From Methanococcoides sp. LMO-2 (GTDB lineage: Archaea; Halobacteriota; Methanosarcinia; Methanosarcinales; Methanosarcinaceae), in the NCBI RefSeq assembly GCF_038432375.1, contig NZ_JBCAUS010000003.1, positions 62,001-126,000 on the forward strand: a stretch of 64,000 bases of DNA. The letters run 5' to 3'. Made by a program: the position numbers and the translations under genes. Within the stretch, counting starts at the first letter, position 1; each line of letters opens with the position of its first letter. Shown piece by piece: positions 1,246 through 61,691 of the stretch. The notes under the pieces are model-generated. The model did not search any database. It was not told the DNA's origin and was given only the letters and a program-made list of their open reading frames with translations.

Positions 1246-2145
1246 CTAATCAAGAGACGGGAAAGCGCCGAACTTACTTTCATACCTGGCAACCATATCA
1301 TCCCATGTAGGAAGATCTGTCTGGCAACCAACTGACTCAACAGCAAATGATGCGACCGTAGCTCCTGCCTTTCCACAGACATCCAGCGGATATCCACGTA
1401 CATATGATACAAGGAAACCTGCACGATATGCATCTCCTGCACCGGTTGGGTCAACTGCCTTTACCGGAACCACCGGGATCTCGTATTCAGCACCTTCAGA
1501 GAATATCTTACTGCCTTCGGCATCATAGGTTACGACCACAATGTCTATCTTTTCCTTGATGTCCTCAAAAGTGCTCTCGGTCATGTCGCAGACGCGCTTG
1601 ATCTCGTGCTTGTTGGTGAAAAGGACATCGGTGTTCTCAAGGATAATTTCAAGATTCTCTCTTGTGTACGTTATAAGATCCTGTCCGGGATCAAAAGATA
1701 CGAACTTTGCCTTCTGTGCAATCCTGGCATTGAAGTTCGGCTCAGATGTTGCAAGGTGGACAAAGTCAACTTCCGGAGGGTCCAGTTCCTTCAGCTTTGC
1801 GGATGCTCCCCAGTAGAAGTAAGTTGACTGATTGTGGAAAGGATCCGTATAAACATATGCAGCAGTTCCCTTCTCACCCTCGAGCCTGAAAAGCAGGGAG
1901 AGATCAACACCCAGCCCATCAAGATGCTCTTCATAACCCGATGTTGCAAAATCATCCCCTACTGCAGAGATCAGCTGGGAGTTTCCGCCAAGGATAGAGA
2001 TAGCTGCAACGATGTTCGCAGCCCCGCCTCCAAAGAACTTCTGATAATCAACTATCGGATATGACTCGTTCTGTCCTGCAATTCCCTCCACATCGAACAG
2101 GAAGTCTATTGCAGCGTGACCTACTACAGATATCACATCAGACAT
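1246..2145 (-). CDS. PfkB-family sugar/nucleoside kinase
   Basis: A 299-residue ribokinase-fold kinase. The N-terminal GGGAAN motif (residues 39-44) is the substrate-side signature. DPTGAGD (232-238) is the anion-hole signature with the catalytic base D238. It transfers a phosphate from ATP to a sugar or nucleoside hydroxyl; the substrate cannot be read from the sequence, and an archaeal nucleoside kinase is one option. The ATG follows AAGGTGT and lies 9 bases after the DUF555 gene, so it is the last gene of the HerA-DUF357-DUF555 operon. Its stop is UAG followed at once by in-frame UAA, the only UAG gene end I found in the window. Confidence 0.85.
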   Translation of the reverse strand: MSDVISVVGHAAIDFLFDVEGIAGQNESYPIVDYQKFFGGGAANIVAAISILGGNSQLISAVGDDFATSGYEEHLDGLGVDLSLLFRLEGEKGTAAYVYTDPFHNQSTYFYWGASAKLKELDPPEVDFVHLATSEPNFNARIAQKAKFVSFDPGQDLITYTRENLEIILENTDVLFTNKHEIKRVCDMTESTFEDIKEKIDIVVVTYDAEGSKIFSEGAEYEIPVVPVKAVDPTGAGDAYRAGFLVSYVRGYPLDVCGKAGATVASFAVESVGCQTDLPTWDDMVARYESKFGAFPSLD

Positions 2146-14927: not shown

Positions 14928-15569
14928 TTACATATCACTTGATTTCACAGCACTGATCACCACAAAGGAGCCCTGTCCATGTCCCAGTAGCACGGGCTCT
15001 ATTTCCACTATATCCTTCAGTTCACTGAAGATCGTCTGTGTGCAGACGGGGTCATCAAACCCGGATTCGTTGAGAAGGTACACGACCTATTCCACAGAAT
15101 AGAAGGTTGCAAGTTCATAAAAAACATTGCTGGAACTTTTTCCCCGATATGACCTGCCAACAGGACTGTTTCTGTCTATAAACCCAATAACAAAGGATCC
15201 ACCCGGCGTCAGGATCCTATTCACTTCCCTGAATGCGGATACAATATCATCCAGGAAACAGATGGTTGTGGTCATCAGTACAAGGTCAAAGCTGGAATCT
15301 GTAAAAGGAAGCTTTTCAGCTACACCACGAACAACACCAATTCCTCTTTCCCGGGATATATCCAGCATGCTAGGCGAGGGGTCCAGACCCAGATGAATAT
15401 CCAGCGGTGATGCAAACCTTCCACTCCCAACACCGATCTCCACACCTCTTGAAAAGGATGGCATGTTGGCTCTCAATGCCTTCAGCTCTGAGTTGTAGAC
15501 AGGAGCGTTATCCTCGAACCACTTTTCATATCTGGAAGTGTACCTTTCGAATGGCATTGTCTTTGGCAT
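14928..15569 (-). CDS. Class I SAM-dependent methyltransferase with in-frame UAG
   Basis: The frame encodes 160 residues, a UAG codon (15087-15089), then 52 more residues to a UAA, 213 positions in all. The first part has the SAM-binding core (VEIGVGSGRFA, LGLDPSPSML) and post-motifs (FDLVLMTTTICFLDD, ILTPGGSFVIGFIDR). The part after UAG reads LLNESGFDDP, TQTIFSEL and GHGQGSFVVISAV, which is the usual C-terminus of this methanogen/clostridial methyltransferase group. So UAG is probably read through, perhaps as pyrrolysine, rather than ending the protein. The substrate is unknown. Confidence 0.8.
15087..15089 (-). other. In-frame UAG codon, candidate pyrrolysine site
   Basis: TAG on the minus strand after FYSVE, with the same frame continuing VVYLLNESGF. 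The family normally has a continuous helix here (FYSxEEVxxLLxxAGF), so the codon falls at a tolerant surface position. Confidence 0.65.
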
Positions 15570-59631: not shown

Positions 59632-60699
59632 TCAATCCTCATCATCCTCGAAGTACCTTCTTACAAGCAGAACAAGACTTGAACCGAGAAGTAGCAACAG
59701 GAAGATAGCGATGACCATGCCTTCCAGAGTAAAGTCCTGCCATGAGTGTACCGATACCCACATACCGCTACGGGTAACGAATGTTGCGAATATGACCAGT
59801 ATGAAGGAAGTCACTGCAAGCATCGGCGCGAGGAACCTGTATTCCCCATGTTGGACCCTTGTCTGGGCATGAAGGTAAGCGGTGGCAGTTATCCAGGGGA
59901 TCAGTGAGGATGTCTCAACAGGGTCCCATGTCCAGTACCATGCACCCCAGCCGAGGACCTCGTATGCCCAGAAACCGCCAAGTCCGATACCTGCTGTGAG
60001 GAAGAGCCATGCCATCCTCATCCAGTCCCGGGATATCTTTATCCATTTCTCATCATCGATGATAAGGGTTGCAAGAGCAGCTGCGAATGGAATTGTGAAA
60101 GCTGCATAACCAAGGAACAGTACCGGAGGATGGACTGCCATCCACGGGTTTCTCAGGAGAGGATTCATACCCTGTCCGTCCGTAAGCGGATATGCTGATA
60201 CGAACGGGTTCCAGTTGGAGATCTCCACGTATGAACCTACATCTCCATAATACATGGAGAACGGGTTCTTCAGTACCAGCAACATCAAGAAGACGGTAAC
60301 GATAAGCAGGCATATGGCCCGGGTGATGTTCATGACCCTGCTATCGAACAGCTCCTTAGTATGCCCTGTGTACTGCATTGCCAGAAGCATCAGGAGTGTA
60401 AACCATGTCCAGAGCAGGAAGGAACCCTCCTGGCCTGCCCACAATGCGGAAAGACGATAGACAAATTCAAGGTCGACGCTTGAATGCATGTAGACATAGA
60501 CGTAGGATGCCGATACCGTAAGCAGGTAATAGGTCAGCATCAGGATCGCAAGAGTGATAGCTGCCGTACAGCCAAGCTCAAGCTTCCTGGAAAGTGAACC
60601 TGCACTGGTACTGTTTGTACGCAGGTGGATGATGGAATATGCAGCTGAAGCCGCACCGAGGATGAAGGCTATCCAGATGAGGATCATTCCAAAGTTCAT
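59632..60699 (-). CDS. ccmF: CcmF N-terminal half (heme lyase, WWD domain)
   Basis: About 355 residues with nine or so membrane segments. It carries the WWD heme-binding signature GWGAWYWTWDPVETSSLIPW and the flanking ligand His (AVHPPVLFLGYA). It begins MNFGMILIWIAF at an ATG overlapping the stop of the C-half gene (ATGA, 60696-60699). CcmF ligates heme to apocytochrome c outside the membrane. In most organisms it is one protein of about 650 residues; here the second half is a separate gene placed first. Confidence 0.9.
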   Translation of the reverse strand: MNFGMILIWIAFILGAASAAYSIIHLRTNSTSAGSLSRKLELGCTAAITLAILMLTYYLLTVSASYVYVYMHSSVDLEFVYRLSALWAGQEGSFLLWTWFTLLMLLAMQYTGHTKELFDSRVMNITRAICLLIVTVFLMLLVLKNPFSMYYGDVGSYVEISNWNPFVSAYPLTDGQGMNPLLRNPWMAVHPPVLFLGYAAFTIPFAAALATLIIDDEKWIKISRDWMRMAWLFLTAGIGLGGFWAYEVLGWGAWYWTWDPVETSSLIPWITATAYLHAQTRVQHGEYRFLAPMLAVTSFILVIFATFVTRSGMWVSVHSWQDFTLEGMVIAIFLLLLLGSSLVLLVRRYFEDDED

Positions 60700-61691
60700 T
60701 TTTTGCCTCCCTTGCGGCTTTCTGGGCCATTGTCCCATTTTCCTTTGATCTTAGCCACAGTGTTTGCAGCTTTTCCATCAACCGAATAATCGATAATTCC
60801 AAGAATACTTATTCCGGCAAGCATCAGGAAAAGGCCACCCCAGATGAATGTGATGAAAGGTACGGTTCTTACATATATGCTGACCTCACCACTGTTCTCG
60901 TTCAGCGCTTTTGGAGCGATGAAAAGTTCTTCGAATATTCCACGATGCACGTATGTGGTCGTGTAGGTCTGGCCCCATTTGAAATCGGTGATGTATTTCA
61001 CCTGCCCACTGTCAAAATAAGCACCGTTTTTGTAGACATCGAAATCCACATAGGTTGCATAGGATGAACCATGATACTGTTTGTAATGTGAACCTTCGAA
61101 AACGGAATCCATTCCGGTAACCGAGACCATGTAGTTCTGTCCTTCGAACTAACCGGCAGAGTCCATGGAGACAACAGCAGAACCATCCACTTTCAGGTTA
61201 CTGCTGGCGACGATACCTATGAGGATGAGGATGATTCCAAGGTGGATGACGTGTGCACTGACCCCGCGCAGTTTCATCATGTTGGAATCCCTTTGCAGGG
61301 ACATATAGATCTTGTAGAATGTAGCCACCAGACCCATGCTCACTATTGGGACCGAAACATCAAGGGGAAGGTTTCCGAATGGTGAAAGAAAAACAAATGC
61401 TATGGACATTGCTACTGTGAGACCTCCCACGAACAACGTTCTCTTCGCACCGAAGTAACCATAGAGCAAATACATCGTGAGCAATACCACCAGTCCTGCG
61501 GTTGGAAGAGCGCTCCTGTTATTGAAGTACTCAGGAGTCATAGCCATTTCAACTCCTGTGGTCAGCCTGACTATCAGTGGAGTCAGCATGCCCACGGTTA
61601 TGAGAGCAGCAAGGAGCAGCATGGTCAATACCGCTACCAGCATAAGGTTACTGCTGTTCACGAGGTCTTTGCTTTGTTTCATGAAATTCAC
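60696..61691 (-). CDS. ccmF: CcmF C-terminal half with in-frame UAG
   Basis: 180 codons, a UAG (61149-61151), then 150 more codons in the same frame to UGA. Before the UAG: membrane segments, TPEYFNNRSALP and RGVSAHVIHLGIILILIG, which match the CcmF region after the WWD domain. After it: GQNYMVSVTGMDS, the VDFDVYKNG part and FITFIWGGLFLMLAGI, which match the periplasmic loop and last helix of CcmF. Both parts belong to one domain, so the UAG is probably decoded (pyrrolysine) rather than ending translation. A separate start at ATG 61130 is the alternative. Starts: GTG 61691 or ATG 61682. Confidence 0.82.
61149..61151 (-). other. In-frame UAG codon, candidate pyrrolysine site in CcmF
   Basis: TAG after VVSMDSAG and before FEGQNYM. 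CcmF proteins usually carry a short loop with Gly-Tyr here, so the residue would lie in the outside loop near the heme site. Confidence 0.65.

Follow-up and report, generated by a model that had tools for sequence, protein, structure and literature searches.

A conserved in-frame UAG, most likely read as pyrrolysine, in the split cytochrome c heme lyase gene ccmF of Methanococcoides

Introduction

The methylamine methyltransferases MtmB, MtbB and MttB are encoded by genes with an in-frame UAG, and their pyrrolysine is catalytic and nearly universal. An archaeal 'Pyl code', in which UAG is a general sense codon, has reportedly been described by Kivenson et al. in Science in 2025. For pyrrolysine in Thg1 (tRNA-His guanylyltransferase), neutral evolution has been invoked as the explanation (Heinemann et al. 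2009, as cited in PMC2933860 and PMC3639795). The main texts of in-frame UAG surveys of 2005, 2007 and 2013 (PMC1242214, PMC1914089, PMC3639795) name no CcmF-like candidate, and a search of one literature library for CcmF and pyrrolysine together found no paper.

The gene described here codes for the C-terminal half of CcmF in Methanococcoides sp. LMO-2. It has the in-frame UAG in common with the methyltransferase genes, and MttB and MtbB copies with an in-frame TAG are found in the genome sample; unlike in these enzymes, the residue column is variable, and pyrrolysine would be limited to two genera. The gene resembles Thg1, as UAG is found outside the methyltransferases, relatives have ordinary residues at the site, pyl genes are needed, and no catalytic role is obvious, but differs from it because seven species share the codon, which is found again in that column in a second genus. 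As in the archaeal Pyl code, TAG is nearly absent as a terminator, and many in-frame TAGs mark varied genes; three possible terminal TAGs in the source-genome sample are a point of difference. The CcmF_C profile, the fold and a partner gene encoding the WWD-type N-terminal half are shared with CcmF/NrfE heme lyases (structure 6zmq). In contrast to these, the gene is split in two, with the C-terminal half first, and the putative pyrrolysine codon falls in the extracytoplasmic domain.

Materials and methods

The window is the whole stretch of DNA analyzed (64,000 nucleotides), and positions given without a locus name refer to it. The source genome measures 2.31 Mb, belongs to the genus Methanococcoides, and is 99.9% complete. 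The family survey covered 112 genomes: the gene is present in 79, and carries a TAG inside in eight. Eleven genomes are from Methanococcoides, ten of which have the ccmF C-terminal half. TAG usage was monitored in a sample of 404 kb, made by 17 stretches (340 kb) and the window, corresponding to 17.5% of the genome, in which 344 reading frames were called by codon usage; the tRNA scan covered the 340-kb sample. To compare depth of conservation, the CcmF site and five other TAGs outside the methylamine methyltransferases were each checked at the corresponding position in the genomes of the genus. dN/dS values were calculated according to Nei and Gojobori. A tree of four-fold sites (98 sites) was too short for a reliable branch order, and was left out of inference.

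Results

The features of the locus are listed in Table 1. The minus strand hosts a frame of 332 codons, starting at the GTG at 61691-61689 or the ATG at 61682-61680 and ending with TGA, in which the only internal stop is the TAG at codon 181. As proposed in the initial annotation, both sides of this stop belong to the C-terminal half of CcmF. On the CcmF_C profile the two pieces align one after the other (34–206, then 239–315); each alone gives an E value of about 3e-4, below the Pfam cut-off, which the joined frame passes. In the CcmF/NrfE model TIGR00353 (578 positions), the joined frame matches positions 294–568. Six codons (TTC GAA GGA CAG AAC TAC) link the TAG to the next ATG with no change of frame, also as initially annotated. 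Frameshifting near the UAG is ruled out by the +1 and -1 frames, which close within 7–53 codons. The downstream gene, although listed as an open reading frame from 60738, has its conserved start at the overlap with the stop of the upstream gene, and the overlap suggests that translation of the two halves may be coupled. With CcmF_C (PF16327) in one half, the CytC_asm part (PF01578) in the other, and a fold match to 6zmq, the pair is identified as a CcmF heme lyase.

Table 1. Features of the split ccmF locus, in window coordinates
Feature	Position	Strand	Remarks
ccmF C-terminal half	60696..61691	-	PF16327 CcmF_C 50.6 bits (cut-off 28.7); 332 codons if TAG is sense
In-frame TAG, codon 181, proposed pyrrolysine codon	61149..61151	-	Column common to 7/10 Methanococcoides and G068
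Next in-frame ATG, hypothetical restart of a two-product model	61128..61130	-	ATA (Ile) in TAG carrier G006 and in the His genomes
Downstream ccmF gene: N-terminal half with the WWD-type heme-handling part	59632..60699	-	PF01578 114 bits; TIGR00353 1–279
ATGA overlap (TGA stop of C-terminal half, ATG start of N-terminal half)	60696..60699	-	All 10 Methanococcoides; also G068 and G017, both of another genus

Alignment of CcmF from related species, suggested in the initial annotation, revealed that homology continues through the site. Seven of the 10 Methanococcoides genomes have TAG at the identical codon, a pattern beyond chance, and the other 3 have His (CAT). The flanking Gly codon varies (GGT, GGC, GGA), while TAG is constant. 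Both Methanococcoides clades include TAG carriers, and the three His genomes form one group beside G006, itself a carrier. A single gain in the genus ancestor followed by one replacement would require two changes, as would two separate gains. At position -3 all Methanococcoides carriers have Ser and the His genomes Tyr; the shared Ser would fit a TAG ancestral in the genus. Synonymous divergence between the clades is at least 1.3, near saturation, with TAG unchanged.

dN/dS values, which include pairs in which both members carry TAG, range from about 0.03 to 0.15 upstream of TAG and from 0.03 to 0.12 downstream, and point to strong purifying selection on both sides. No interior TAA or TGA was found in the ccmF C-terminal half among the 79 family genomes with the gene. 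Given the low values on both sides and the lack of other interior stops in the family, a pseudogene or an error is excluded in practice, and the region past the TAG is translated.

The AlphaFold model of the C-terminal half has a mean pLDDT of 82.7, and its best structure match is CcmF 6zmq (E 3.5e-11). The model starts with five helices, continues with a beta domain and closes with one more helix. A short strand (179–181) near the start of the beta domain ends in residue 181, and a loop comes next; strands 168–176 and 179–181 precede the break, and the remainder of the domain comes after it. According to the model, termination at 181 would cost most of the beta domain and the last helix. The 64 relatives without TAG feature 12 residue types in the site column (H, Q, S, T, A, D, E, F, I, K, N, Y). 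Residue 181 belongs to a turn of the extracytoplasmic domain that is very variable, rather than to an active site. H147 and H150, possible heme ligands, are invariant in A2 and belong to the membrane helix that precedes the site. Of 60 columns with the same variability outside the genus, 26 are invariant among TAG carriers, so that TAG is retained no better than an ordinary residue. Since the turn is very variable, a tolerated, near-neutral use of TAG is the simplest reading.

The eighth in-gene TAG of the family belongs to another genus (g8; genome G068, L137, C1:47600-49100), in the context ENTPV-TAG-FENLDY, and falls in the same alignment column as in Methanococcoides; the nearest relative (G071) has Ser (TCA). 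All eight TAGs hence share one column, spread over two genera whose CcmF sequences group apart. As the G068 protein groups with g8, and not with Methanococcoides, gene transfer is unlikely, and the TAG is an apparent independent recurrence. If the gains were independent, chance coincidence would be about 1/321 over all columns, 1/102 over the variable ones, 1/62 over variable polar ones, and 1/26 over those at least as variable, for a single coincidence spotted post hoc and based on two events. Gln encoded by CAG, one step from TAG, occupies the site in Methanolobus-like genomes. Because the column accepts 12 residue types and CAG is so close to TAG, the recurrence is well explained by a hotspot of tolerance; selection for pyrrolysine is possible.

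A search for pylTSBCD, also suggested initially, identified the complete cassette in the same genome. Contig C6 carries the genes for tRNA-Pyl(CUA), PylS, PylB, PylC and PylD as one cluster (L057 10684-15039), with the tRNA gene (anticodon CTA) just upstream. PylS scores 687 bits, and PylB, PylC and PylD are likewise above the NCBIfam cut-offs. PylS is above cut-off in all 11 Methanococcoides genomes, in G068 and in the neighbor G071. tRNA-Pyl was the only CUA tRNA seen in the 340 kb scanned. The pylB gene (L057 12051-13163, plus strand) ends in a TAG one base before the start of pylC (13165), and reading past it adds 42 codons without coding character; this TAG may genuinely terminate pylB, or may provide feedback on the supply of pyrrolysine.

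TAG ends 15 of the 344 frames of the sample, against about 31% expected from base composition; 134 frames end with TAA and 195 with TGA. Coding-like sequence follows 12 of the 15 TAG-ended frames, but only 25 of the 329 ended by TAA or TGA (Fisher p 1.4e-10). As TAG rarely ends frames, and most of those it ends run on, UAG looks like a near-general sense codon in the 17.5% of the genome sampled, and a rough extrapolation gives some 70 sense TAGs per genome. Among the genes with an in-frame TAG are two for MttB and one for MtbB, which are known pyrrolysine enzymes, but most such genes fall outside the methylamine methyltransferases, and include an NAD(P)H-hydrate repair enzyme (NnrD), an FrhB-like F420 oxidoreductase, an aldehyde dehydrogenase, a SAM methyltransferase, and sensor kinases. 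Pyrrolysine in a heme lyase had been regarded as unusual in the initial annotation. The assignment to a heme lyase holds, but the site looks less exceptional, being in a variable turn and in a genome where most run-on TAGs mark non-methyltransferase genes: it is one of many such sense-TAG sites, not a special case.

Three TAGs of the sample appear terminal, in pylB, in a pfkB kinase and in a histidine kinase gene, the latter with a second stop two codons on; UAG may perhaps not be sense everywhere. In the pfkB-family gene (window 1246-2145, minus strand), the final TAG is immediately followed by a second stop codon.

Of the six non-methyltransferase sites compared, the CcmF TAG is the deepest-conserved. 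TAG is private to the source genome in the NnrD, SAM methyltransferase and aldehyde dehydrogenase genes, and is found in three genomes in the kinase gene. In the FrhB-like gene TAG is present in six species of one Methanococcoides clade, Tyr in the other clade. The latter gene (L059 16554-17723, minus strand) encodes a YHS-ferredoxin-FrhB fusion. At the TAG (15087-15089) of the SAM-dependent methyltransferase gene (window 14931-15569, minus strand), the aligned congeners carry Asp or Glu. A PAS/PocR sensor kinase of 1454 residues (L067 3886-8247, plus strand) features two in-frame TAGs in one frame.

Discussion

It is highly probable that UAG is decoded as pyrrolysine by tRNA-Pyl in the ccmF gene, at a permissive, near-neutral site ancestral in the genus, to give a full-length C-terminal half. 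PylS would charge tRNA-Pyl(CUA) with pyrrolysine, and the charged tRNA would read UAG, so that a single full-length product is made; ribosomes would go on to the true TGA, and could restart at the overlapping ATG of the N-terminal gene. The codon would stem from a mutation that hit a permissive position in organisms already using UAG as a near-general pyrrolysine codon, and would have been carried since the Methanococcoides ancestor, with one replacement by His. The presence of pyl genes, the conserved codon and the low dN/dS downstream make pyrrolysine, initially raised as a possibility, the most likely residue 181; another residue inserted at UAG would leave identical sequence evidence. Some truncated product may be made besides the full-length one. 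No PYLIS-like fold was found downstream of the UAG (z +0.71; 151 of 200 shuffles fold equally well), which fits general rather than programmed decoding.

Pyrrolysine might be positively useful in CcmF: Methanococcoides and the second genus would have recruited it separately, two or more times in all, at the same turn, with for instance its reactive imine or long side chain aiding heme or apocytochrome handling near the apocytochrome, CcmE or heme docking site. The sharing of one column by all eight TAGs, in genera whose CcmF sequences group apart, speaks for such a role, as do the odds of coincidence (about 1/321 for all columns or 1/62 for variable polar ones, if the gains were independent), and the depth of conservation relative to the other five sites. 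We nevertheless consider this improbable: few columns of the protein vary as much, His occupies the site in three Methanococcoides species that have pyl genes, similarly variable columns are conserved as well as TAG, and the coincidence, noticed post hoc, involves two events. A little less probable again is a regulated switch, in which partial decoding of UAG ties the C-terminal half, and via the ATGA also the N-terminal half, to pyrrolysine supply, and hence to growth on methylamines. Pyrrolysine supply is linked to methylamine metabolism, and translation of the N-terminal half plausibly needs ribosomes passing the UAG; yet sister species manage without UAG, and a folded element downstream is lacking. 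Moreover, with UAG so commonly used as sense in this genome, a switch specific to one gene is unneeded.

That UAG is a real stop, with two short proteins, the second restarting at the downstream ATG, jointly making a split CcmF domain, is very unlikely. The ATG is the seventh codon past the TAG and is preceded by a weak AGGA, and CcmF is here already divided into two genes; but the AGGA lies within codons for residues also found in relatives without TAG, the break would land inside the modelled beta domain, and TAG acts as sense in most other sampled genes. Restart at this ATG is rejected because the carrier G006 has ATA, and the ATG is probably an ordinary Met codon; the making of only two short products, a refuting condition of the initial annotation, is contradicted. 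The chance of a pseudogene or a sequencing error is negligible. Nothing but the stop codon itself speaks for it; against it, the genome is nearly complete, seven separately assembled species genomes hold the identical codon, contradicting the suspicion of a sequencing error initially raised, and selection is not relaxed after the stop, dN/dS being far below 1 on both sides.

If UAG is read as pyrrolysine, cytochrome c maturation would join the functions dependent on pyrrolysine decoding in Methanococcoides, with an in-frame UAG kept since the genus ancestor in a gene unrelated to methylamines. Caution in annotation is advisable, because standard pipelines would halve the protein or label the gene a pseudogene. 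Recurrence in one column offers a clean, testable case of whether pyrrolysine is ever selected outside the methyltransferases; twofold recruitment in CcmF, if true, would mean functional pyrrolysine beyond methylamine metabolism.

In three genomes of other genera (G034, G028 and G101; L017, L031 and L172) a TAG is found a few codons before TAA or TGA at the extreme C-terminus of the CcmF C-terminal half, and the length of the tail hinges there on whether UAG is sense or not.
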